From NCBI GenBank assembly GCA_015657635.1, contig JACDQM010000147.1, forward strand, positions 1 through 64,000: DNA of 64,000 nucleotides. Reading direction: 5' to 3'. The position numbers and the translations under genes were made by a program. Below the pieces are notes generated by a model. It did no database searches. It was not told where the DNA came from and was given only the letters and a program-made list of their open reading frames with translations. Shown in pieces: positions 11,302 to 37,834 of this stretch; the first letter of the stretch is position 1, and every line of letters starts with the position of its first letter. Source of the DNA: Roseateles sp. Its GTDB lineage: Bacteria; Pseudomonadota; Gammaproteobacteria; Burkholderiales; Burkholderiaceae_C.

Positions 11302-11331
11302 AGGCCTCGCTTCGGCGAGGCCTTTTCTTTT
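11302..11331 (+). terminator. intrinsic terminator after the TRAP binding protein gene
   Basis: A perfect 9-bp stem (11302-11310 with 11315-11323) with a stable TTCG tetraloop is followed by TTTTCTTTT. It is a textbook rho-independent terminator 44 bp after the stop. Confidence 0.9.
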
Positions 11332-23440: not shown

Positions 23441-24643
23441 TCAGCCCTGCATCACGCTCGCCATCGCCTTTGCGACGACGGGCAGGTTCTTCTCATTCAG
23501 TGCTGCCACGCAGATGCGGCCCGAATCGACGCCGTAAACACCGAACTCACTGCGCAGCTTTTGCATCTGGGCGGCATTCAGCCCGGAGTAGCTGAACATG
23601 CCCTTCTGGCGCGTGACGAAGCTCAGGTCGGATGTGACGCCTGCCGCTTTGAGCGCGTCGACCAAAGCCTGGCGCATCGCGCGGATACGCAGGCGCATGC
23701 CGGCCAGTTCGTCCTCCCACAGCTTGCGCAGCTCGGGTGTGGACAGCACGCTGGCAACGACCTGTGCGCCATGCGTCGGCGGGTTGGAGTAGTTGGTGCG
23801 GATGACAATCTTCAGCTGCGACAGCACCTTGGTGCATTCCTCGGCCGAGGCGCACACCACGCTCAGCGCGCCAACCCGCTCGCCGTACAGCGAGAAGCTC
23901 TTGGAGAAGCTGGTCGAGACAAAGAAGTCCAGGCCTGCGGCCAGGAACTGCTGAATCACGGCGCCGTCTTCGGCGATGCCTTCGCCAAAGCCCTGGTAGG
24001 CCATGTCCAGGAAAGCCACCAAGCCACGCGCCTTGACGGCGGCCACGACCTGATCCCACTGCGCAGGCGTCAAATCGTAGCCCGTCGGGTTGTGGCAGCA
24101 GGCGTGCAACACCACGACCGTGCCGGCAGGCGCGGCGTTCAGCGCCGCCAGCATGCCTTCAAAATTGATGCCGAGCTTGCCGGCGTCGTAGTAGGGATAG
24201 GTCTCGACCGGGAAACCGGCGTTGGCAAACAGCGCGCGGTGGTTTTCCCAGGAGGGGTCCGAGATCAGCACCTTGGCGCCGGGGTTCAGGCGCTTGAGGA
24301 AGTCGGCGCCAATCTTCAGGCCGCCGGTGCCGCCGATGGCCTGCACCGTCGCGACACGCTTGGCCGCCAGCACGGCGCTGTCGGCGCCGAACACCAGGGC
24401 CTGCACAGCCTTGTCATAGGCGGCGATGCCGTCGATCGGCAGATAGCCGCGCGCCTTCGGGTCGGCCTGCATCTGCGCTTCGGCCTGGGCCACGCACTTC
24501 AACAGCGGCAGCTTGCCGTTCTCGTCGTAATAGACGCCGACGCCCAGATTGACCTTGGCCGGGTTGGTGTCGGCATTGAACTGTTCATTCAGACCCAGAA
24601 TGGGGTCGCGGGGGGCCATTTCGACAGCGGCAAACAAGGACAT
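23441..24643 (-). CDS. aromatic amino acid / aspartate aminotransferase
   Basis: PLP-dependent class I aminotransferase of the AspC/TyrB family, 400 residues, moving the amino group between aspartate or aromatic amino acids and 2-oxoglutarate. The start at 24643 reads MSLFAAVEMAPRDPILGLNE. Key residues: Asp213 in FLDMAYQGF, PLP-binding Lys248 in STSFSKSFSLYGERVG, and the HNPTG motif (HACCHNPTGYDLT). AspC and TyrB cannot be separated by eye. It is divergent from uvrB with 145 bp between starts. Confidence 0.92.
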   Translation of the reverse strand: MSLFAAVEMAPRDPILGLNEQFNADTNPAKVNLGVGVYYDENGKLPLLKCVAQAEAQMQADPKARGYLPIDGIAAYDKAVQALVFGADSAVLAAKRVATVQAIGGTGGLKIGADFLKRLNPGAKVLISDPSWENHRALFANAGFPVETYPYYDAGKLGINFEGMLAALNAAPAGTVVVLHACCHNPTGYDLTPAQWDQVVAAVKARGLVAFLDMAYQGFGEGIAEDGAVIQQFLAAGLDFFVSTSFSKSFSLYGERVGALSVVCASAEECTKVLSQLKIVIRTNYSNPPTHGAQVVASVLSTPELRKLWEDELAGMRLRIRAMRQALVDALKAAGVTSDLSFVTRQKGMFSYSGLNAAQMQKLRSEFGVYGVDSGRICVAALNEKNLPVVAKAMASVMQG

Positions 24644-24746
24644 GGGACTTTCCTGACAGGACGTTGGCATGAGCATGGGCGTGACCGGGCGGCACGCGGG
24701 GAGCGCCTGCGCTACGCTGTCGAGTTGGCAGCCGGCGCAGAGCGGG

Positions 24747-24778
24747 CTGATTTTAGGGCGGTCTGAACCGCCAATCAG
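24747..24778 (+). promoter_or_regulatory. hairpin in the uvrB leader
   Basis: GGCGGT-CTGA-ACCGCC (24757-24772) is extended by an outer CTGATT/AATCAG pairing (24747-24752 with 24773-24778) with a 4-base bulge. It ends 10 bp before the uvrB ATG and partly covers the likely ribosome-binding site. Confidence 0.4.
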
Positions 24779-24788
24779 GGATTGCCCG

Positions 24789-26912
24789 ATGCACGCAGCG
24801 AGTACCGTTCCAGAAACCACCCCAGACAGCGCCGAGGCGCCGAAGGGAGAGTTCGTCACATTCGAAGGCTCGCCATTCCAGCTGTTCCAGCCCTTTCCGC
24901 CGGCCGGTGACCAGCCGGCGGCCATCGCGCAGCTGTGCGAGGGCATCAATGACGGCTTGAGCTATCAGACCCTGCTGGGCGTGACGGGCTCCGGCAAGAC
25001 CTTCACGATGGCCAATGTGATTGCGCGGCTGGGCCGGCCGGCCATCATCTTCGCGCCCAACAAGACGCTGGCGGCCCAGCTCTATAGCGAGTTCCGCGAG
25101 TTCTTCCCGAAGAATGCGGTCGAGTACTTCGTCAGCTACTACGACTACTACCAGCCTGAGGCCTATGTGCCGCAGCGCGACCTGTTCATCGAGAAGGACA
25201 GCGCGATCAACGAGCAGATCGAGCAGCTGCGGCTGTCGTGCACCAAGAGTCTGTTGGAGCGGCGCGATGTGGTGATCGTGGCTTCGGTCTCGGCCATCTA
25301 CGGTATCGGCAGTCCGGCGGACTATCACCAGATGGTGATGACACTGCGCGTGGGCGACAAGCTCGGCCAGCGGGATGTGATCGCGCAGCTGACGCGCATG
25401 CAGTACACACGCAATGAGATGGAGTTCACCCGCGGCCATTTCCGCGTGCGTGGCGACACCATTGACGTGTTCCCGGCCGAGCACTCCGAGCTGGCGCTGC
25501 GCATCGAGATGTTTGACGACGAGCTGGAAAGCCTGCAGCTCTTCGACCCGCTGACGGGCAAGGTGCGGCAGAAGATCCCGCGCTTCACCGTTTATCCCAG
25601 CAGCCATTACGTGACCCCGCGTGAGCGCGTGCTGGCAGCGGCCGAGACCATCAAGATCGAGCTGCGCGAGCGCGTCGGCCAGTTCGTCGCCGAGGGCAAG
25701 CTGGTCGAGGCGCAGCGCCTGGAGCAGCGCACGCGCTTTGATTTGGAGATGCTGCAGGAAGTCGGCCACTGCAAGGGCATCGAGAACTACACCCGCCACC
25801 TGTCGGGGGCGGCGCCCGGCGATCCGCCGCCGACGCTGGTGGACTATCTGCCGCCTGATGCGCTGATGTTTCTCGACGAGAGCCATGTGCTGATCGGCCA
25901 GTTCGGCGGCATGTACAACGGCGACCGCGCACGCAAGACGACGCTGGTGGAGTATGGCTTTCGCCTGCCCAGCGCACTCGACAACCGGCCGCTGAAGTTC
26001 GAGGAGTTCGAGCGCAAGATGCGCCAGGCGGTGTTCGTGTCAGCGACGCCAGCGGTTTACGAGAAGGAGCATTCCGGCCAGGTGGTCGAGCAGCTCGTGC
26101 GTCCGACCGGCCTGGTCGACCCTGTCATCGAAGTGCGCCCGGCCGCCCGTCAAGTGGATGATGTGCTGAGTGAGATCCGGCTGCGCGTGGACGTCGGCGA
26201 GCGCGTTCTGATCACCACGCTGACCAAGCGCATGGCCGAACAGCTGACGGATTACTTGAACGACAACGGCGTCAAGGTGCGCTATCTGCACTCAGACATC
26301 GACACGGTCGAGCGGGTGGAGATCTTGCGCGATCTGCGTCTGGGGACCTTCGATGTGCTGGTGGGCATCAACCTGCTGCGCGAAGGGCTGGACATCCCCG
26401 AGGTCTCGCTGGTGGCCATCCTGGACGCTGACAAGGAAGGTTTCCTGCGGGCCGAGCGCAGCCTGATCCAGACCATCGGCCGCGCGGCTCGCAACCTCAA
26501 CGGCAAGGCCATCCTGTACGGGGACCGTATCACCGAGTCGATGCGCAAGGCCATTGGCGAGACGGAGCGCCGGCGCGCCAAGCAGATTGCCTTCAACACC
26601 GAGCATGGCATCACGCCGCGCGGGCTGAACAAGCGCATCAAGGAGTTGATCGAAGGCGTCTACTCGAACAAGCCCGGTCGCGACGATCAGCAGCTCGTAC
26701 AGGTCGCCGAGCTTGAGCAAATGTCCGAAAAGGACCTGGGCAAGCGTATCGGCCAGCTGGAGAAGCAGATGCTGGAGCTGGCCCGCAATCTCGAGTTCGA
26801 GAAGGCCGCCCGCATCCGCGACCAGCTGGCTCAACTGCGGGAACAGGCATTCGGCGCGTCGGTACACGACAACATCGTGCCCTTCGACGCCAGCCCTGCA
26901 CGCCGCGGCTAG
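24789..26912 (+). CDS. uvrB: excinuclease ABC subunit B
   Basis: Damage-verifying helicase-like subunit of nucleotide excision repair. The ATG at 24789 ([20 protein letters not shown]) is preferred to an open stretch 120 bp upstream. Walker A is GVTGSGKTF with Lys70, the beta-hairpin is [15 protein letters not shown], the DEAD-type box is FLDESHVL, and motif VI is [19 protein letters not shown]. The C-terminal UVR domain that meets UvrC is present (about 660-695). Length is 707 residues, with a non-conserved N-terminal extension of about 20 residues. No clear LexA box is seen upstream. Confidence 0.96.
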
Positions 26913-26975
26913 CGCCTGGCGCCGCCTTGCTTCTTCCGGCCACGTGCGCCGGGTGCGTTCACTGCAAGCCTGTGA

Positions 26976-27000
26976 ATAATTGAGTAAACTACTCAGGCAT
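26976..27000 (+). promoter_or_regulatory. IscR-type operator upstream of iscR
   Basis: An imperfect palindrome centred on GAGTAAACTACTC and flanked by ATA at the left and CAT at the right resembles the type 1 IscR site. It lies 89 bp before the iscR start, consistent with autorepression by the 2Fe-2S form of IscR. No other promoter element is clear. Confidence 0.65.
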
Positions 27001-27089
27001 ACCCAAGGGTTAACCCGTTTGATTGGTGTGCCAGCAGCCAAGGTGCCTGATTTGCTGGCTCAAGTTCCCGTGGATTGAAGGAGATTTTC

Positions 27090-27623
27090 ATGCGTTTGAC
27101 TACCAAAGGTCGCTTCGCCGTCACCGCGATGATTGACTTGGCCTTGCGTGAAAACAGCGGACCTGTCGCTCTGGCTGCCATCAGTCAACGCCAGCAGATT
27201 TCCCTGTCCTACCTGGAACAGCTGTTCGGCAAGCTGCGCCGCCACGAGTTGGTGGAGAGCACGCGCGGCCCGGGCGGCGGCTATTCCTTGGGCCGGAAGT
27301 CCGAGGAGATCACGGTGGCCGACATCATCGTCGCCGTCGATGAGCCGATCGACGCCACCGGCTGTGGCGGCAAGGAAAACTGCATGGGCGGTGACGCCGG
27401 CCGTTGCATCACCCACGAGCTGTGGACCAGCCTGAACGCCAAGATGATCGAGTATCTGGACTCGGTGTCGCTGCGCAAGCTGGTCGAGGATCAGCTGGCC
27501 AAGGGCGTCACCATCGAAGAGGCGCCGATCAAGCGCGCCATCTCCTCGCAGCCGGTGGTCAAGCCCATCCGCGTGACCGCGCCGAATTCGGTGTTCGCCC
27601 TCGGCAACGCATTCACCAAGTAA
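27090..27623 (+). CDS. iscR: Fe-S cluster regulator IscR
   Basis: Rrf2-family repressor that senses Fe-S status by carrying a 2Fe-2S cluster. The DNA-binding start MRLTTKGRFAVTAMIDLALR is typical, as is STRGPGGGYSLGR. Cluster ligands: Cys92, Cys98, Cys106 and His109. The spacing between the second and third Cys is seven residues (CMGGDAGRC) rather than the five of E. coli. The ATG at 27090 has a good GGAGA ribosome-binding site. Length is 177; the last 30 residues are a family-variable tail. It is first gene of the isc operon, 15 bp before iscS. Confidence 0.96.
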   Translation: MRLTTKGRFAVTAMIDLALRENSGPVALAAISQRQQISLSYLEQLFGKLRRHELVESTRGPGGGYSLGRKSEEITVADIIVAVDEPIDATGCGGKENCMGGDAGRCITHELWTSLNAKMIEYLDSVSLRKLVEDQLAKGVTIEEAPIKRAISSQPVVKPIRVTAPNSVFALGNAFTK

Positions 27624-27638
27624 TTTCTAACTACTGAC

Positions 27639-28853
27639 ATGACGCCTCATTTCCCGATCTACATGGACTACGGCGCGACGACGCCGGTCGACCCCCGCGT
27701 GGTGGATGCCATGGTTCCCTGGTTGCGCGAGCACTTCGGCAACCCGGCTTCGCGCAGCCACGCTTGGGGGTGGGAGGCTGAAGAGGCGGTCGAGAACGCT
27801 CGCGTGCAGGTGGCCGAGTTGATCGGTGCCGACCCGCGCGAGATCGTCTGGACTTCCGGCGCCACCGAATCCATCAACCTGGCGCTCAAGGGCGCTGCGC
27901 AGTTCTACAAGACCCGCGGCAAGCACCTGATCACGGTCAAGACCGAGCACAAGGCCACGCTGGACAGCATGCGCGAGCTGGAGCGTCAGGGCTTCGAAGT
28001 CACCTACCTCGACGTGCAAGCCGACGGCTTGCTGGACCTGGAGGCGTTCAAGGCGGCGCTGCGGCCGGACACCATCCTGGCTTCGGTGATGTTCGTCAAC
28101 AACGAGATCGGCGTCATCCAGGATGTGGTGGCTCTGGGTACGCTGTGCCGTGAGCGCGGCGTCATCTTCCACGTGGATGCTGCGCAAGCCACCGGCAAGG
28201 TCGCCATCGATCTGGCCAGCTTGCCCATCGACCTGATGAGCATGTCGGCGCACAAGACCTACGGCCCGAAGGGCATGGGTGCGCTGTATGTGCGCCGCAA
28301 GCCGCGGGTGCGGCTGGAGGCGCAGATGCATGGTGGCGGCCATGAGCGCGGCATGCGTTCGGGCACGCTGCCCACGCACCAGATCGTCGGCATGGGCGAA
28401 GCCTTCCGCATCGCCCGCGAAGAGATGGGTGTCGAGAGCGAACGCATCCGCATGCTGCAGAAGCGCCTGATCGACGGCCTCAGCGGCATCGAGCAGGTCT
28501 TCATCAACGGCGATCTTGAGAAGCGCGTGCCGCACAACCTGAACATCTCGTTCAACTATGTGGAAGGCGAGAGCCTGATCATGGGCGTTAAGGGCTTGGC
28601 CGTTTCCTCGGGTTCGGCCTGCACCTCGGCAAGTCTTGAGCCCAGCTATGTGCTGCGCGCACTGGGCCGCAGCGACGAGCTGGCGCATTCCTCGCTGCGC
28701 ATGACCATCGGCCGCTTCACGACCGAGGACGAGATCGACTACGCGATCGCCACGCTGAAGGATCGGGTGGCCAAGTTGCGCGAGCTCTCACCCCTGTGGG
28801 ACATGTACAAGGACGGCATCGATCTGTCGACCATTCAATGGGCCGCGCACTGA
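27639..28853 (+). CDS. iscS: cysteine desulfurase
   Basis: PLP enzyme that takes sulfur from cysteine for Fe-S clusters and tRNA thiolation. Lys206 ([12 protein letters not shown]) binds PLP and Cys328 ([21 protein letters not shown] region) carries the persulfide, both at the E. coli positions. N-terminal [17 protein letters not shown] is conserved. Length is 404 residues, full. Second gene of the operon; iscU follows 32 bp later. Confidence 0.97.
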
Positions 28854-28885
28854 GCGGTCAACCCCGTCGTTAGGAGAAGAACACC

Positions 28886-29272
28886 ATGGCATACAGCGAA
28901 AAGGTCGTTGACCATTACGAGAACCCCCGCAACGTCGGCGCCTTCGAAAAGGGTGACGACAGCGTCGGCACCGGCATGGTCGGTGCGCCGGCTTGTGGCG
29001 ACGTGATGAAGCTGCAGATCAAGGTCAACCCCGCGACCGGCCTCATCGAGGACGCCAAGTTCAAGACCTACGGCTGCGGCTCTGCGATTGCGTCGAGCTC
29101 TCTGGTGACCGAGTGGGTCAAGGGCAAGAGCCTGGACCAGGCGCTTGAGATCAAGAACACGCAGATCGCCGAGGAACTGGCCTTGCCGCCGGTGAAGATC
29201 CACTGCTCCATCCTGGCTGAGGATGCCATCAAGGCTGCGGTGGACGACTACCGCGCCAAGCACACACAGTAA
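28886..29272 (+). CDS. iscU: Fe-S scaffold protein
   Basis: Scaffold on which clusters are built, 128 residues. The three cluster Cys are present: PACGD, YGCGSAI and HCSILAE. The HscA recognition motif LPPVK lies just before the last Cys. The start [18 protein letters not shown] is the family start with an AGGAGA ribosome-binding site upstream. Confidence 0.97.
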
Positions 29273-29288
29273 GGAAGAGGGCGCACGG

Positions 29289-29612
29289 ATGTCAGTGACC
29301 TTGACAGAAGCGGCTGCGCGGCACGTGACGCGCTACATCGCCAAACGCGGCAAGGGCGTGGGCGTGCGCCTGGGCGTGAAGACCACGGGTTGCTCGGGCC
29401 TGGCCTACAAGCTTGAGTATGCCGACGACGTGGCTCCGGAAGATGTGGTCTTCGAGGGGCATGGCATCAAGATCCTGATCGATCCCAAGAGCCTGCCGTA
29501 TCTGGATGGCACGGAGCTTGACTTCGTGCGCGAAGGGCTCAACGAAGGCTTCAAGTTCAGGAATCCGCGCGAGAAAGACCGCTGCGGTTGCGGCGAGTCC
29601 TTCCGCGTCTAA
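29289..29612 (+). CDS. iscA: Fe-S assembly protein IscA
   Basis: A-type carrier, 107 residues. It has the three conserved Cys: one in TTGCSGLAY and two in the C-terminal CGCGESF. The ATG at 29289 ([20 protein letters not shown]) follows iscU by 16 bp. An intrinsic terminator lies between it and hscB. Confidence 0.96.
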
Positions 29613-29635
29613 GGTCAGCCCCCTTCGAAACCGAC

Positions 29636-29668
29636 GGCGCGGCTCACTGGCCGCGCCTTTGCTTTTTT
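29636..29668 (+). terminator. intrinsic terminator inside the isc operon (iscA-hscB)
   Basis: A perfect 8-bp GC stem (29636-29643 with 29650-29657) with a 6-base loop is followed by TTTGCTTTTTT. It lies 23 bp after iscA and 20 bp before hscB on the coding strand. It should reduce hscBA-fdx expression relative to iscRSUA unless read through. Confidence 0.85.
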
Positions 29669-29688
29669 ACGATCTTCGATCGCCTCGC

Positions 29689-30207
29689 ATGAGACTTGAC
29701 GACGACGACTTCAGCCTCTTCGGCCTGCCGCAGTGCCAGGTACAGGATCGCGCCGAAATCGAGGCGCGCTGGAAGGCCTTGGCCGCCAAGGTGCATCCCG
29801 ACAAGTTCGCCACCGAAGGAGCAGCAGCTCAGCGTCAAGCCATGCAATGGGCCCTGCGAGTCAATGAGGCGCATCAGCGCCTGCGTGACCCACTCAAGCG
29901 CGCTGCCTATCTGTGTGAGTTGCGCGGCGCGCCACTGCATGTGGAGGACAACACCCGCATGCCGACCCAGTTCCTGATGGAGCAGATGGCCTGGCGGGAA
30001 GCGCTTGACGAGGCTGCCGACGCAACTGCGGTGCAGGCCTTGGATGACGAGGTGGCTGCACGTGAGCAAACCTTGTTGGCGGAAACCGCGCGCTTGCTGG
30101 ATCAGGCCGATGACGCCAGGGCGGCGGCGGAGCAGGTTCGCGCCCTGATGTTCGTCGCCCGCTTCCGGGCCGACATAGATAAGCGCCTCGACGCGCTGGG
30201 ACAATAA
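29689..30207 (+). CDS. hscB: co-chaperone HscB
   Basis: J-domain co-chaperone, 172 residues, that brings IscU to HscA. The HPD motif is in KVHPDKF near residue 38, and the three-helix C-terminal domain that holds IscU follows. The ATG at 29689 gives [15 protein letters not shown], a family-like start. It follows a terminator, so its transcription level may differ from iscRSUA. hscA starts 4 bp after its stop. Confidence 0.93.
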
Positions 30208-30211
30208 GAAG

Positions 30212-32080
30212 ATGGCACTGCTGCAGATTTCCGAACCGGGCGCTTCGCCCAATCCACATGAGCGACGCATTGCGGTCGGCATCGACCTGGGGACCACGCA
30301 TTCGCTGGTCGCGTCGGTGCGCCACGGCGTGGCCGAATGCCTGCCGGACGAGCAGGGGCGGGTGATCCTGCCTTCGGCGGTGCGCTACCTGGGCGATGGC
30401 GGCCGGCAGATCGGCGCCGACGCGCTGGCCGCGCAAGCCGAGGATCCGGAAAATACCCTGGTTTCGGTGAAACGCTTCATGGGCCGCAGCCTGGGCGACA
30501 TCGCCAATCGCGGCAAGCTGCCCTACCACTTTGTGGATCAGCCCGGCATGCTGGCCATTGAGACCCGCGAGGGTTTGAAGTCGCCTGTCGAGGTTTCGGC
30601 AGAGATCCTGGCCACCTTGCGCTACCGCGCCGAGGACAGCTTCGCCGACGATGTGTTTGGCGCCGTGATCACCGTGCCCGCCTACTTTGACGACGCGCAG
30701 CGCCAGGGCACCAAGGATGCGGCGCAGCTGGCTGGCCTGAACGTGCTGCGCCTGATCAACGAACCTACGGCGGCCGCCATTGCCTACGGCCTGGACAACG
30801 CCAGCGAAGGGCTCTATGCGGTCTACGACCTGGGCGGCGGCACCTTCGACATCTCCTTGCTGCGACTGTCCAAGGGGGTGTTTGAGGTGGTCGCCACCGG
30901 TGGTGACGCGCAGCTCGGCGGCGATGATTTCGACCGCAGCTTGGCCGATTGGGCCCTGGCCCAGAGTGGCCTGCAGATTGATAGCGCCCAGGACAAGCGT
31001 CGCATCCTGGTGGCCGCCCGCGCCGCCAAAGAGGCACTCAGCGATGCCGATGCGACAACACTGACGGCCGCGCTGGATGCCGGCAGCGTCAGCGTGCCGG
31101 TGACACGGGCCCAATTTGACGAACTGGCCAAGCCGCTTGTCGACAAGACTCTGGCGTCGGTGCGCCGCGTCCTGCGCGATGCCAAGGTCAAGGCCGAGGA
31201 AGTGAACGGCACAGTCATGGTGGGCGGCTCAACCCGCATGCCCTGCGTGCGAGCGGCCGTCGGCGCGCTGTTCGGCCCGAATGGTGACGCCAAGGTGCTG
31301 ACCAATCTCAACCCCGATGAGGTGGTGGCGCTCGGCGCCGCCATCCAGGCCAACCAGCTGGCCGGCAATGCCGCTGATGGCGAGATTCTGCTGCTGGACG
31401 TGATCCCCCTGTCGCTGGGTCTGGAGACCATGGGCGGCTTGGTTGAGCGCGTCATTGAACGCAATGCGACCATCCCGGTGGCCAAGGCGCAGGACTTCAC
31501 CACCTTCAAGGATGGTCAGACCGCAATGGCCATCCATGTGCTGCAAGGCGAGCGCGAGCTGGTCAGCGAATGCCGCTCGCTTGGCCGCTTTGAACTGCGA
31601 GGCATACCGCCCATGGTGGCTGGCGCCGCACGCATCCGCGTGACCTTCCAGGTCGATGCCGACGGACTGCTGAGCGTGTCGGCCAAGGAGCTCAGCTCCG
31701 GCGTCGAAGCCGCGGTACAGGTCAAACCCAGCTATGGCCTGTCGGACGAGCAGGTGGCTGCGATGCTGAAGGATGGCTTCGCTGCGGCTGAGACCGATAT
31801 GCAGGCGCGGGCGCTGCGTGAGGCGCGTGTCGATGCCGAGCGCATGACGCTGGCCACGCACTCGGCGCTGGCTGCCGACGGCGATCTGCTGGATCCGGCC
31901 GAGTTGGCGGACATCCAAGCCCTCCTTCAGGCCCTGTCCACCGTTGCGCAAAGCGACGACGCGTCAGCCATCACGGCGGCGGTCGACGACTTGGCCAAGG
32001 GGACCGAAGCCTTTGCCGCTGCCCGCATGAACCGCGGCATCCATCAGGCCCTGGCCGGCCGCACCATCGATCAGGTTTGA
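30212..32080 (+). CDS. hscA: Hsp70-family chaperone HscA
   Basis: Specialised Hsp70 that drives cluster transfer from IscU. ATP-binding signatures: [17 protein letters not shown] near residue 25, [16 protein letters not shown] and [16 protein letters not shown]. The substrate-binding domain follows from about residue 390, and the lid ends in [14 protein letters not shown]. Length is 622 residues, normal. Tightly spaced between hscB and fdx. Confidence 0.96.
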
Positions 32081-32093
32081 CTGGAACAGCCTT

Positions 32094-32432
32094 ATGCCAA
32101 CCATCAAGATTCTTCCCCACGCCGAGTACTGCCCCGATGGCCGACAGCTCAGCGCCCCGGCCGGCACCTCGATCTGCGAAGCGCTGCTCGACAACGGCGT
32201 CGAGATCGAGCATGCCTGCGATATGGTGTGCGCCTGCACGACCTGCCACGTCATCGTCCGCGAAGGCGGCCGGACGCTGTCCGAGATGGAAGAGGGTGAA
32301 GAGGACATGCTCGACCGCGCCTGGGGACTTGAACCGGATTCGCGACTGAGCTGCCAGGCCATCCTCGGCCAGGCTGATGTGACGATCGAGATTCCCAAGT
32401 ACTCGATCAACCACGCACGCGAGAAGAACTGA
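32094..32432 (+). CDS. fdx: ISC-type 2Fe-2S ferredoxin
   Basis: Adrenodoxin-type ferredoxin that supplies electrons for cluster assembly, 112 residues. Ligands are Cys42, Cys48, Cys51 and Cys87 in ACDMVCACTTCHVIV and LSCQAIL, identical in position to E. coli Fdx; Cys46 is the usual extra Cys. It is 13 bp after hscA. No iscX gene follows; tsaD starts 3 bp later. Confidence 0.96.
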   Translation: MPTIKILPHAEYCPDGRQLSAPAGTSICEALLDNGVEIEHACDMVCACTTCHVIVREGGRTLSEMEEGEEDMLDRAWGLEPDSRLSCQAILGQADVTIEIPKYSINHAREKN

Positions 32433-32435
32433 CCC

Positions 32436-33491
32436 ATGTTGCGGGTGCTGGGTTTCGAGTCCTCCTGCGATGAGACCGGCGTTGCGCTGGTCGAGTTGCC
32501 TGAGAACGGGCAGGGCGTGCCCAGGCTGCTGGGCGAGGCCTTGCACAGCCAGATCGCCATGCATCAGGCCTACGGCGGTGTGGTGCCGGAATTGGCATCG
32601 CGTGACCACATCCGCCGCGTGCTGCCGCTGACGCGCGAAGTGCTGGCGCAATCGGGTCTGGCGCTTCAGGATGTGGATGTGGTGGCCTACACGCAAGGCC
32701 CAGGACTGGCCGGTGCCCTGCTGGTGGGCGCTGGTGTGGCGGTTGCGCTGGCTGCGGCCCTCGGAAAGCCCAGCCTGCCGATCCATCACCTGGAAGGTCA
32801 TTTGCTGTCTCCTTTCTTGTCAGCCGACCCGCCGGAGTTCCCCTTCGTCGCGCTGCTGGTGTCCGGCGGACACACGCAGCTGATGCGCGTCGATGATGTC
32901 GGGCAGTACGAAATCCTGGGTGAGACCATCGACGACGCGGCCGGCGAAGCCTTTGACAAGAGTGCGAAGCTGCTCGGCCTGCCTTATCCCGGCGGTCCGC
33001 ATCTCGCGAAGCTGGCGCAGCAGGGCGATGCGGGGGCCTTCGAGTTGCCGAGACCGCTGCTGCACAGCGGCAAGCCCGATTTCAGTTTTGCCGGGCTGAA
33101 GACGGCGGTATTGACGCAGGTGAAGAAACTTGGCGCCGCGCCAAGCCAGCAGCAGCGCGCCGATCTGGCAGCCGCCACGCAGGCCGCCATCGTTGAGGTG
33201 CTGGTGAAGAAGTCGATGCTGGCGCTCAAGGAGACCGGATTGAAGCGCCTGGTGGTGGCCGGCGGTGTTGGCGCCAATGCCTTGCTGCGTGAGCAACTGA
33301 ATGCCGCCTGCGCCAAACGCGCCGTGCGCGTGCACTACCCAGAACTGCAGCTGTGCACCGACAACGGCGCCATGATCGCAATGGCCGCCGCCTTGCGGCT
33401 GCAGCGCGGCCTTGCCGCGCCAGACACCGATGGGAGCTTTGCCGTCCGGCCCCGCTGGGACCTGAGCACTGTCTCTGGTGCAGTTACCTAG
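32436..33491 (+). CDS. tsaD: tRNA t6A37 threonylcarbamoyltransferase TsaD
   Basis: Transfers the threonylcarbamoyl group to A37 of ANN-decoding tRNAs, working with TsaB, TsaE and TsaC. The start [20 protein letters not shown] is diagnostic. Metal ligands His118 and His122 are in [11 protein letters not shown], and the late Asp is in [12 protein letters not shown]. Length is 351 residues. It begins 3 bp after fdx, so it is read as the last gene of the isc operon. A weak hairpin pair follows its stop. Confidence 0.95.
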
Positions 33492-33499
33492 CCTGGAAC

Positions 33500-33552
33500 C
33501 CGCTGAGCACTAGCCAGCGGCACCTACCGCGCGCCTTGAGCGCGCACTTTTC
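33500..33552 (+). terminator. hairpins after tsaD, possible terminator
   Basis: CCGCTG (33500-33505) pairs with CAGCGG (33515-33520), and GCGCGC (33529-33534) pairs with 33540-33545, followed by ACTTTTC. The second stem with its short T-run may end the isc-tsaD transcript. Weak to moderate. Confidence 0.5.
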
Positions 33553-33578
33553 AGCATGGCTCAGCCAACGTACGTGAA

Positions 33579-34883
33579 ATGAATCAAAAGTCCTTTTTCG
33601 CAAGCCGCCTGTGGATCAAGTCGCTCGGCGCCGCTGTGGCCGTGCTGGCAGGCGCTCTCGCCCATGCAGCGCCGGAACCCATCAAGCTGGGCATGATCGA
33701 GGGGCTGTCCGGCCCGTTTGGCAACGCTGGAGAGGCGGTGCACCGCAATCTGGTCTGGGCTGTCGAGCGGGTGAACGCCCGCGGTGGCGTCAAGCTGCCT
33801 GGCGGCGCCCGGCCGCTGAGCTTGACACGCTTCGACAGCAAGGGTGCAACCGAGGAGGCTCTGTCCATGCTGAGAGCGGCGATCGACCAGCGCGTGAGCT
33901 TCGTCCTGCAGGGCAACAGCTCGGCCACGGCCTCCGCCTTGATCGATGCACTCAACAAGCACAACGAGCGCGAGCCGCAGCGCCGCGCGCTGTTCCTCAA
34001 CTACTCCGCCGTTGACCCCGCGCTGACGAACGAGAAGTGCAGCTTCTGGCACTTCCGCTTCGATGCCCATGCAGACATGCGCCTGGCTGCGCTGACTGAC
34101 CAGCTCGCGGAAGACAGCAGCGTGCAGCGCATCTACCTGATCGGGCAGGACTACAGCTTCGGCCAGCATGTGCTGAAGAAAGGGCGCGAGATGATCGCGG
34201 CCAAGCGCCCCGACATGCAGATCGTCGGCGACGAGTTGCATCCGGTCGGGCGTGTGAAAGACTTCATCCCCTATGCCACCAAGATCAAGGCCAGCGGCGC
34301 GCAAGCCGTGCTGACCGGCAACTGGGGCAATGACCTGACGCTGCTGATCAAGGCCGCCAAGGAAGTGGGCGTCGATGCCCGCTTCTACACCTTCTATGGC
34401 AACGCTCTGGGTGTGCCGGCAGCGCTGGGCGAGAGCGGCATCGACCGCGTGCTGGCTGTGGCCGAGTGGCATCCGAATGTGGGCACGCCCAGCTCCGACC
34501 GTTTCTATGCGGCTTTCCGCGAGCGGTTCCCCAAGCCTGAAGACGATTACGTTCATGCCCGCATGCAGGCCATGGTGGAGGTGCTGGTCGCCGGCATCGA
34601 GAAGGCCCGCAGCGCCGAGCCGGCCGCCGTGGCGCGTGCGATGGAAGGCTTGAAGTTCGATGGCAAGGCCTTGGGCGGCATGCACCAGGGCACCATGCGC
34701 GCCGCGGATCACCAGTTCATCCAGCCGCTCTACGTCAGCATGATGAAGCGGGCTGGCAGCCCTGGCGTCCGCTTTGACAACGAGGGTTCCGGCTACGGCT
34801 TCCGAACTGTACGTTTCGTCGACGCCAGCAAGGCTGAGCAGCCTCATGCCTGCAAGATGGAACGGCCTGCGGGACTGAAGTGA
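33579..34883 (+). CDS. branched-chain amino acid-type ABC transporter binding protein (orphan)
   Basis: Periplasmic solute-binding protein of the LivK family, 434 residues. A Sec signal peptide ends at about residue 30 (AHA then APEPIKLGMIEGLSGPFG). The family motifs include VNARGGVKLPGG and GQDYSFGQHVLKKG. The ligand could be an amino acid, amide or aromatic acid. No permease or ATPase gene is adjacent, so it must either share a transporter encoded elsewhere or have another role. It lies 87 bp after tsaD and is separated from rpsO by 309 bp. Confidence 0.88.
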   Translation: MNQKSFFASRLWIKSLGAAVAVLAGALAHAAPEPIKLGMIEGLSGPFGNAGEAVHRNLVWAVERVNARGGVKLPGGARPLSLTRFDSKGATEEALSMLRAAIDQRVSFVLQGNSSATASALIDALNKHNEREPQRRALFLNYSAVDPALTNEKCSFWHFRFDAHADMRLAALTDQLAEDSSVQRIYLIGQDYSFGQHVLKKGREMIAAKRPDMQIVGDELHPVGRVKDFIPYATKIKASGAQAVLTGNWGNDLTLLIKAAKEVGVDARFYTFYGNALGVPAALGESGIDRVLAVAEWHPNVGTPSSDRFYAAFRERFPKPEDDYVHARMQAMVEVLVAGIEKARSAEPAAVARAMEGLKFDGKALGGMHQGTMRAADHQFIQPLYVSMMKRAGSPGVRFDNEGSGYGFRTVRFVDASKAEQPHACKMERPAGLK

Positions 34884-35192
34884 AACGGCGCCAGAGCTGA
34901 TCACAGATCCGCCCGCGCAACGGGGTGTCCTGGCTGCGGAGGCGCCCGCAGCAAGCGGTACAGAGCGATTGCTGGAAGGTGGTCGCCGTCAGCTCCAAGG
35001 GCTTGGTCTATAATCCGCAGGTTTTGTGTTTCAGTCCTGCCTTTGCGGCGGGCCTGGCCGGCACAGAGCAAGGCACGGCACGGGTCGGTTTCACCTGTGA
35101 CCGCAAGTTAAAACCCTGGAAACCGTCTGTGAGCCATGCCGGCTGTTTTGCCGTGCGCTGCCCAGCGGAATTCCGATACCAAGGAACGCATC
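34884..35192 (+). promoter_or_regulatory. 309-bp rpsO upstream region
   Basis: No gene is seen. A perfect TATAAT lies at 35009-35014 and is the likely -10 of rpsO, giving a leader of about 175 nt. S15 controls its own translation through leader RNA structure in several bacteria, and this leader is long enough, but I do not recognise a specific fold. No clear -35. Confidence 0.5.
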
Positions 35193-35462
35193 ATGGCAGT
35201 CGCCGATCTGAACAAAGCTGAAATCGTCAAGGCTAACGCTCGCAGCGCCAACGACACCGGATCCCCGGAAGTCCAAGTGGCCCTGTTGACCGCCCGCATC
35301 AACGATCTGACGCCCCACTTCAAGACCCACGCCAAGGACCACCATGGCCGTCGCGGTCTGCTGAAGATGGTCAATACCCGCAAGAGCCTGCTGGCTTACC
35401 TGAAGTCCAAGGACGCGGCGCGTTACACGGCGCTGATCCAGAAGCTGGGCCTGCGTAAGTAA
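35193..35462 (+). CDS. rpsO: 30S ribosomal protein S15
   Basis: Primary 16S rRNA-binding protein, 89 residues including Met, exact family length. Signature [19 protein letters not shown] and the end IQKLGLRK are conserved. The ATG at 35193 has AAGGAA upstream. It is followed by a terminator and then pnp, the conserved rpsO-pnp order. Confidence 0.97.
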
Positions 35463-35476
35463 GTCACGCCGGTGCA

Positions 35477-35516
35477 CAAAGAGCCTGTCTGGATGCAAGC
35501 CAGTACAGGCTCTTTG
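35477..35516 (+). terminator. terminator between rpsO and pnp
   Basis: A perfect 12-bp stem (35477-35488 with 35505-35516) with a 16-base loop, followed by CGTTTCAT. It is like the E. coli rpsO t1 terminator in place and probably allows some read-through into pnp. Confidence 0.8.
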
Positions 35517-35570
35517 CGTTTCATCGATTCGTCGTCCGATAGGGGTTGAGCTGACGTGGCGCTGCTATGT

Positions 35571-35608
35571 CATTCCAGCAAGGTTCATTGCCGAGCCTTG
35601 CTGGAATG
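35571..35608 (+). promoter_or_regulatory. pnp leader hairpin
   Basis: A perfect 13-bp stem (35571-35583 with 35596-35608) with a 12-base loop sits 75 bp before the pnp start and has no U-tract. In E. coli a double-stranded element in the pnp leader is cut by RNase III and lets PNPase repress its own mRNA; this is the likely counterpart. Confidence 0.6.
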
Positions 35609-35683
35609 GCAAACCGCCAAACCCAGTCCCACTCCCGGTCATGCGCCGCACCGCAAGCGGCCGTCACTAAGAGAGGAAAGAGC

Positions 35684-37834
35684 ATGAGCATGTTCAACAA
35701 AGTCACCAAGACCTTCCAATGGGGTCAGCACAGCGTGACGCTGGAGACCGGTGAAGTTGCCCGCCAGTCGAGCGGTGCTGTCATCGTCGACATCGAGGGC
35801 ACCGTGGTGCTGGCCACCGTGGTGGCCAAGAGCGAGGCCAAGGCCGGTCAGGATTTCTTCCCGCTGACCGTCGACTATCTCGAGAAGACCTATGCCGCCG
35901 GCAAGATCCCCGGCAGCTTCTTCAAGCGTGAAGGCCGCCCCAGCGAGCTGGAGACGCTGACCAGCCGCCTGATCGACCGCCCGATCCGCCCGTTGTTCCC
36001 CGAGGGCTTCTACAACGAAGTGCAAGTGGTCATCCACGTGCTGTCGCTGAACCCGGAAGTTCAGGCTGACATCGCAGCGATGATCGGCACCTCGGCTGCC
36101 TTGTCCATCTCCGGCATCCCGTTCAATGGCCCGATCGGCGCGGCGCGCGTGGGTTACATCAACGGCGAATACGTGCTGAACCCGGGCAAGACCGAGCTGC
36201 TCAACTCGAAGATGGATCTGGTCGTCGCCGGCACCGAGTCCGCCGTGCTGATGGTCGAGTCCGAAGCTGACCAGCTGAGCGAAGAGCTGATGCTGGGTGC
36301 CGTGGTGTTCGGCCACGAGCAGGGCAACATCGCGATCAACGCCATTCATGAGCTGGTGCGCGACGCAGGCAAGCCGATGTGGGACTGGAAGGCGCCGGCC
36401 AAGAACGAGCCCTTCATCGCCAAGGTTACCGAGCTGGCTGAAGGCGCACTGCGCGCGGCCTACCAGATCCGCTCCAAGCAAGCCCGCACCCAGGCCTGCC
36501 GCGAGGCCTATGCCAAGGTCAAGGAGACCTTGAAGGCAGAAGGCGTGGAGTTCGACGGCGTCGAAGTCGACGGCCTGCTGTTCGAAATCGAAGCCCGCAT
36601 CGTGCGCAGCCAGATCCTGGCCGGCGAGCCGCGCATCGACGGCCGCGACACCCGCACCGTGCGCCCCATCGAGATCCGCAACAGCGTGCTGCCGCGCACC
36701 CACGGCTCGGCACTGTTCACGCGTGGTGAAACCCAGGCCCTGGTGGTCGCAACCCTGGGCACGGACCGCGATGCGCAGCGCATCGACGCGCTGGCTGGCG
36801 AGTTCGAAGACCGCTTCATGCTGCACTACAACATGCCTCCGTTCGCCACTGGCGAAACCGGTCGCGTTGGCAGCCCCAAGCGCCGCGAAATCGGTCACGG
36901 CCGCCTGGCCAAGCGTGCCCTGGTTGCTGCGCTGCCGAGCAAGGAAGACTTCCCGTACTCGCTGCGTGTGGTCTCGGAAATCACCGAGTCCAATGGCTCC
37001 TCGTCGATGGCTTCGGTCTGCGGCGGCTGCCTGGCACTGATGGACGCCGGCGTGCCGATGAAGGCCCACGTGGCCGGCATCGCCATGGGCCTGATCAAGG
37101 ACGGCAACCGCTTCGCCGTGCTGACCGACATCCTGGGTGACGAAGATCACCTGGGTGATATGGACTTCAAGGTGGCCGGCACGACGGCTGGTGTGACCGC
37201 CCTGCAGATGGACATCAAGATCCAGGGCATCACCAAGGAAATCATGCAGGTCGCGCTGGCTCAGGCCAAGGAAGCCCGCATGCACATCCTGGGCAAGATG
37301 GTCGAGGCCATGGGCACGGCCAACAGCGAGGTGTCGCAGTTCGCGCCTCGCCTGTACACCATGAAGATCAATCCGGAAAAGATCCGTGATGTGATCGGCA
37401 AGGGCGGCGCCACCATCCGTGCGCTGACCGAAGAAACCGGCACCACCATCGATATCGGTGAAGACGGCACCATCACGATCGCTTCGACCGACGGCGAAAA
37501 GGCTGAGTACGCAAAGAAGCGCATTCAGGAGATCACCGCGGAAGTGGAGATCGGCAAGGTCTACGAAGGCCCGATCACCAAGATCCTGGACTTCGGTGCC
37601 CTGGTCAACCTGCTGCCTGGCAAGGACGGTCTGCTGCACATCAGCCAGATCGCTCACCAGCGCGTCGAGAAGGTCACCGACTTCCTGACCGAAGGCCAGA
37701 TCGTCAAGGTCAAGGTGCTGGAGACCGACGAAAAAGGTCGCATCAAGCTGTCGATGAAGGCACTGATCGACCGCGACGCCGCTCCGGCGCCTGCTCCTGC
37801 AGCTCCGGCGGCGGAAGAGGGCGCTGCCGAGTAA
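35684..37834 (+). CDS. pnp: polynucleotide phosphorylase
   Basis: Trimeric 3'-5' phosphorolytic exoribonuclease and degradosome part, 716 residues. Two RNase PH domains (about 1-210 and 310-545) flank a helical domain, followed by KH ([20 protein letters not shown]) and S1 ([20 protein letters not shown]). The ATG at 35684 is preceded by GAGAGGAAAG, a good ribosome-binding site; a second Met two codons later is possible. The C-terminal 15 residues are Ala/Pro-rich. qor follows 9 bp later. Confidence 0.97.

Follow-up and report, generated by a model that had tools for sequence, protein, structure and literature searches.

The stretch of DNA analysed here (64 000 nt, referred to as the window) carries on its plus strand the gene order iscR-iscS-iscU-iscA-hscB-hscA-fdx-tsaD, as read from open reading frames and their translations. 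The promoter-proximal genes iscR, iscS and iscU (27090–29272) lie 5′ of iscA (29289–29612; its ORF is listed from an upstream ATG), the final gene ahead of a predicted terminator. The distal half opens with hscB (29689–30207), whose protein was matched in 145 of 150 genomes of the family, and continues 3′ of the predicted terminator with hscA, fdx and tsaD (30212–33491), separated by gaps of 3–13 nt; the boundaries of both multigene segments were translated without internal stops. Among named relatives, the HscB protein is closest to that of a Methylibium sp. MAG (97% identity), followed by Roseateles, Paucibacter and Pelomonas. Upstream of iscR, at 26976–27000, the sequence ATAATTGAGTAAACTACTCAGGCAT resembles a type 1 IscR site.

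Between the iscA stop codon (29612) and the hscB ATG (29689) there are 76 nt. The initial annotation described a perfect 8-bp GC stem with a T-tract in this gap, and direct reading confirmed it at 29636–29668. The arms GGCGCGGC (29636–29643) and GCCGCGCC (29650–29657) enclose TCACTG; the stem-loop (29636–29657, plus strand) consists of eight G-C pairs and a T.G wobble, giving nine pairs in all around a CACT loop. The U-tract TTTGCTTTTTT (29658–29668, plus strand; 9 T of 11, interrupted by TTTGC) follows, so that 29636–29668 combines two features of an intrinsic terminator, a GC-rich stem-loop and, immediately after it, a run rich in U. The RNA segment 29628–29672 has a folding energy of −20.3 kcal/mol (z-score −3.68; 1 of 200 shuffled sequences was as stable). 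The remaining 20 nt to hscB (29669–29688, plus strand) lack any Shine-Dalgarno match of at least 3 nt, and no promoter match there rises above the level of shuffled sequences.

How often such a structure should appear by chance depends on the rule applied. With a strict rule (stem of at least nine pairs, at least seven of them G-C, and a T-rich tail; both strands of the whole window), two sites were found, 29636–29668 and 11302–11323, whereas shuffled windows had 0.27 on average; at least one site occurred in 15 of 60 shuffled windows. Under a looser energy rule the junction hairpin ranked only 6th of 57 matches, and shuffled windows yielded similar numbers (64, 61 and 50). A loose rule applied to 24000–36000 left 29636–29668 as the sole plus-strand terminator-like site; both strands together had six sites versus 8.0 ± 2.9 in shuffles. 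The number of sites by itself proves nothing, since this total is not above the shuffled level. Viewed in a single genome the hairpin is only suggestive and could be due to chance; the comparison with relatives is decisive. The second strict-rule site, 11302–11323, is also a perfect nine-pair terminator hairpin, AGGCCTCGC..GCGAGGCCT followed by TTTCTTTTGT.

For this comparison we combined a family-wide genome sample with 80 named loci and scored every isc junction by the same rule, a hairpin of −12 kcal/mol or better ending 0–2 nt ahead of a T-rich 8-mer. The iscA-hscB set had 191 distinct junctions with gaps of up to 300 nt, obtained from 222 sequences (the window included) after merging identical ones. 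A hairpin with a T-tract was present in 113 of the 191, versus 7, 10 and 8 in three shuffles, although the loci are related and such counts are not independent. The number of junctions was 121 at −8 and 97 at −15 kcal/mol. At each of the six other isc junctions the same rule detected no more than one case: iscR-iscS 1/74, iscS-iscU 1/169, iscU-iscA 1/196, hscB-hscA 1/94, hscA-fdx 0/72 and fdx-tsaD 0/36. These junctions offer less space, with median gaps of 5–64 nt versus 75 nt at iscA-hscB; as the other gaps are shorter, iscR-iscS (median 64 nt) provides the fairest comparison. Conservation in relatives had been named in the initial annotation as a check on the terminator, and the comparison shows it.

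The T-tract was also assessed with no U-tract requirement. Among 150 gaps of 45–170 nt, 141 contained a hairpin of −12 kcal/mol or better, and T frequencies at positions +1 to +7 after the best hairpin were 61, 63, 55, 54, 42, 37 and 43%, versus 22% overall. The 5′ side of the same hairpins had no comparable T bias (18–30%). Overall, the iscA-hscB element is real and conserved, and most likely functional. What merits reporting is the conservation of a terminator shape at this junction.

The element is far from universal within the family. In the family sample (mostly one genome per genus, threshold −8 kcal/mol) the hairpin was detected in 79 of 144 loci, and its presence varied with the gap: 72 of 95 loci with gaps of 45–300 nt, 7 of 12 with longer gaps and 0 of 34 with gaps below 45 nt, several of the latter being 4-nt overlaps of iscA and hscB; three loci had no junction. 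Many related genera have overlapping or nearly abutting iscA and hscB genes in place of a terminator. On a tree of concatenated IscA and HscB, 61 of 140 family loci had no match and the presence of the hairpin changed at least 30 times (shuffled mean 45); this minimum is rough, as the tree was built with FastTree from two short proteins, with L220, L221, L225 and L226 dropped. Given the loci without a match and the frequent changes, the terminator is dispensable in many genera.

The stem sequence varies by lineage, while the junction position and the U-tract are kept. Type I stems (GCGCGG/CCGCGC) are found in the window and in Roseateles, Paucibacter, Pelomonas and Mitsuaria loci; type II stems (CCGCC/GGCGG) in, for example, Acidovorax, Simplicispira and Hydrogenophaga loci; and type III stems (CCCCACC or CCTCACC/GGTGGGG) in Aquabacterium and other Burkholderiales loci, often with a weaker tail that places them below the rule. 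Of the 79 family loci detected at −8 kcal/mol, 38 had a type I stem, 32 a type II stem and 9 another stem. On the FastTree tree of IscA and HscB, types I and II switched at least three times over 69 rows, versus a shuffled mean of 23. Covariation was a weak check: in 36 rows picked because they matched a pattern that includes GCGCGG and CCGCG/TCGCG, two of eight pairs change on both sides, both outside the core, whose invariance is built in by the choice of rows.

We compared the occurrence of both stems across genomes with that of reversed-pattern controls. The pattern GCGCGG..CCGCGC-TTT occurs in the window's own genome (G000) at three sites, giving six overlapping rows versus six control rows, and in 12 relatives in 5–16 rows versus 1–6 for the control; G008 (5 versus 6) and G031 (7 versus 6) do not clearly exceed it. 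The pattern ACCGCC..GGCGGTTTT gave 2–10 rows in each of 12 genomes searched, all 12 with zero rows for the control, so that this stem recurs with a T-tail at a few sites outside isc; it is also present in G000 and G075, whose isc stem is of another type. The type II stem therefore looks like a common terminator stem, which for type I could be demonstrated only in part, and both resemble everyday terminators more than any dedicated regulatory sequence. A dispersed repeat family was considered as well and rejected by the row counts against the reversed-pattern control; the stems are also not unique to isc.

The position of the hairpin is set relative to iscA. In gaps of 45–170 nt it begins a median of 20 nt after the iscA stop codon (interquartile range 15–29), and the distance from its end, U-tract included, to hscB has a median of 20 nt (interquartile range 13–40; 31 in the window). 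Loci with long gaps are informative in this respect. In 13 of 16 loci with gaps of at least 300 nt (two of the 16, L010 and L040, are apparently one sequence) a GNAT acetyltransferase gene is located between iscA and hscB (L023, L030, L032, L068, L073, L076, L131, L139, L143, L188, L207, L216 and L226; the L032 copy matched Pfam PF00583 with E-value 2.3e-18 and the remaining copies were identified by tblastn). The best hairpin lay between iscA and the GNAT gene in 7 of these 13 loci, starting 14–37 nt past the iscA stop, and between the GNAT gene and hscB in none of the 13. The other six have no terminator before the GNAT gene; in three of them there is no room for one, the GNAT start being at most 21 nt from the iscA stop. 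Since the hairpin, when found, follows iscA even with a GNAT gene inserted, it belongs to iscA and is not an hscB leader. Three loci with gaps of 226–262 nt (L175, L195 and L208) contain a small ORF of ∼75–80 codons with a shared QGCGCC(V/L)D(I/V)WDV motif; the copy from L195 had no Pfam match.

We propose that the element is probably a constitutive partial intrinsic terminator placed after iscA within one operon and setting a ratio of iscRSUA over hscBA-fdx. RNA polymerase starting at the iscR promoter would transcribe iscRSUA; at 29636–29668 the GC hairpin and U-tract would release a share of the polymerases, while the remainder would read through into hscBA-fdx-tsaD, which presumably has no promoter of its own. 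This would keep IscR/S/U/A message, and perhaps the corresponding proteins, in constant excess over the chaperone/ferredoxin half. The observations behind this proposal are the hairpin with its U-tract, its conservation here and not at the other isc junctions, its anchoring to the iscA stop and the short space before hscB. Expression of hscBA-fdx-tsaD by read-through is most likely, because hscB begins just 20 nt after the U-tract; the initial annotation saw no obvious promoter in this spacer, which leaves little room for one.

The initial annotation went further and expected iscRSUA to be much more abundant than hscBA-fdx-tsaD. The conserved terminator is consistent with an excess, but its size is not readable from sequence. 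In E. coli, SMRT-Cappable-seq showed that 75% of mapped termination sites have at least 5% read-through, that read-through is uncorrelated with hairpin energy and that a better-defined poly-U tract is associated with less read-through (PMC6131387); as hairpin energy is not informative there, termination efficiency is unpredictable from sequence here. Within-operon intrinsic terminators with substantial read-through are common in that data set, as would be expected of the element in the window; the isc operon differs in being absent from the main text of that paper (0 matches for ‘isc’ words). The lack of a Shine-Dalgarno match at hscB is not a specific feature: a Shine-Dalgarno sequence of at least 4 nt precedes iscU in 99% of 168 loci, hscB in 20% of 198, hscA in 7% of 45 and iscS in 1% of 74, so that hscB shares its poor score with iscS and hscA.

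The best-surviving alternative, though in our judgement distinctly unlikely, is a pair of transcription units, with the hairpin ending iscRSUA transcription fully and hscBA-fdx-tsaD expressed from its own promoter. The title of Desnoyers 2009 reportedly names an E. coli mRNA iscRSUA, which we counted in favor of two units. A −10-like sequence, TACGAT, is present in the gap (29668–29673); it has no matching −35 element. A sigma-70 scan of 29401–29700 had a best match of 7/12, not above any of 20 shuffles (7–10), while the scan has little power, reaching only 7/12 upstream of iscR as well. A promoter after the U-tract would have to fit in the 20 nt before the ATG (a similarly short distance is typical of relatives), and transcription from any promoter within iscA would also meet the hairpin; the flanks, moreover, appear unconserved by eye.

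Regulated read-through was the other option of the initial annotation, and we rate it below two transcription units. Here passage would vary with iron or Fe-S status by means of an anti-terminator, a protein or a small RNA. The heavy regulation of Fe-S genes makes this attractive, and condition-dependent read-through was described in E. coli at prs-dauA and dapA-bamC (PMC6131387). We searched for a competing structure by constrained folding that left the 3′ arm unpaired, with 120 nt of upstream sequence. For the window alone the alternative fold was 10.7 kcal/mol worse than the hairpin, versus 14.8 with shuffled upstream sequence, a difference that favors regulation. Over 111 relatives, however, the alternative was a median of 12.0 kcal/mol worse versus 12.1 with shuffled upstream sequence (Wilcoxon P = 0.61), and the smallest difference was 5.5. 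In 12% of these relatives the mean pair probability of the hairpin fell below 0.5 with the 120 nt included, so that it is not dominant there, a point against the constitutive terminator. When 30 selected relatives sharing the type I stem were aligned, no conserved block was visible by eye between the iscA stop and the hairpin, an Rfam search of 20000–45000 gave no match at the iscA-hscB junction, and the stem itself is replaced between lineages. With neither an anti-terminator fold nor a conserved flank the attenuator option is unsupported and a classical attenuator is unlikely, though a trans-acting factor may still act on the terminator.

Least probable of the three is a 3′-end stabilizer, processing element or source of a 3′-UTR small RNA that protects iscRSUA RNA after cleavage and does not terminate: some hairpins after iscA do have no strong T-tract (several in Aquabacterium, and by eye L290, L291 and L312), but T enrichment confined to the immediate 3′ side of the hairpin is something a pure stabilizer does not need, termination and stabilization being in any case compatible.

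A constitutive partial terminator has well-described parallels. Terminators that set expression ratios inside operons are established, including cases with no anti-terminator and with reduced U-tracts (PMC9045158). In the ABC-importer operons of cellulolytic Clostridia treated there, internal terminators follow the genes of substrate-binding proteins, and the likeness extends to the single GC-rich stem-loop, the reduced U-tract, the lack of an anti-terminator, the excess of the upstream gene and the downstream read-through. The difference is that ratio and termination efficiency were measured in that system, while in the window they are predicted, for another operon in another phylum. The comparison made in the initial annotation with E. 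coli, where RyhB-driven decay was said to separate the same halves, was misplaced: RyhB is described as acting at iscR-iscS, sparing iscR and lowering iscSUA (PMC8593673, PMC6956336). The E. coli operon also yields unequal segments, but by a small RNA and decay under iron limitation, at iscR-iscS rather than iscA-hscB and not by a terminator.

Expression data from other bacteria bear on the proposal indirectly. In Burkholderia cenocepacia, fold changes reported under H2O2 were 2.9 for iscS, 3.4 for iscU, 1.6 for iscA, 2.3 for hscB and 2.4 for hscA (PMC2830190). These appear alike on both sides of the junction and we counted them against the proposed ratio, though a fold change is not a basal ratio and the species was taken regardless of hairpin presence. 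A co-transcription assay reported for Comamonas testosteroni covers iscR-S-U-A (PMC4683182), and RT-PCR in Leptospirillum CF-1 indicated co-transcription of the whole cluster (PMC9628965). In the literature searched, with most subscription papers outside it, we found no description of an iscA-hscB terminator or of the E. coli K-12 hairpin described below. The data suggest that in a large group of Burkholderiales the ISC operon has two expression halves. The transcript level of one isc gene may then not represent the whole operon in these bacteria, and the element, simple enough to delete or exchange, would offer a way to learn if Fe-S assembly depends on having more IscSUA than HscBA-Fdx.

The terminator shape at iscA-hscB is common in the family of the window and scattered elsewhere. 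In the order sample HscB was matched in 82 of 120 genomes (loci L230–L257 were scored), and in other families of the order 6 of 27 loci passed at −8 kcal/mol (L232, L234, L236, L238, L246 and L257). In the class sample, limited to the best 30 of 79 matches from 185 genomes, 2 of 28 loci with a junction passed at this threshold (L259 and L263); both figures are raw counts with no shuffle baseline. In the order of G404, where HscB was matched in 83 of 99 genomes, the best 30 and E. coli were scored; of their 27 distinct junctions, 5 passed at −8 kcal/mol, versus 2, 1 and 0 in shuffles. A broader idea, which we regard as speculative and rather unlikely, is that control of the ISC system has arisen at iscA-hscB again and again: passage through a terminator would set the ratio of scaffold/desulfurase to chaperone/ferredoxin there, and an antitermination factor acting in trans might adjust that ratio. 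The iscA-hscB gap of E. coli K-12 (NC_000913, L258) contains a hairpin (−18.4 kcal/mol) followed by a TGTTTTACC tail, located at the same junction as that of the window but different in stem sequence and with a weaker tail. A similar hairpin was found in L289, from a genome with 87% HscB identity to E. coli.
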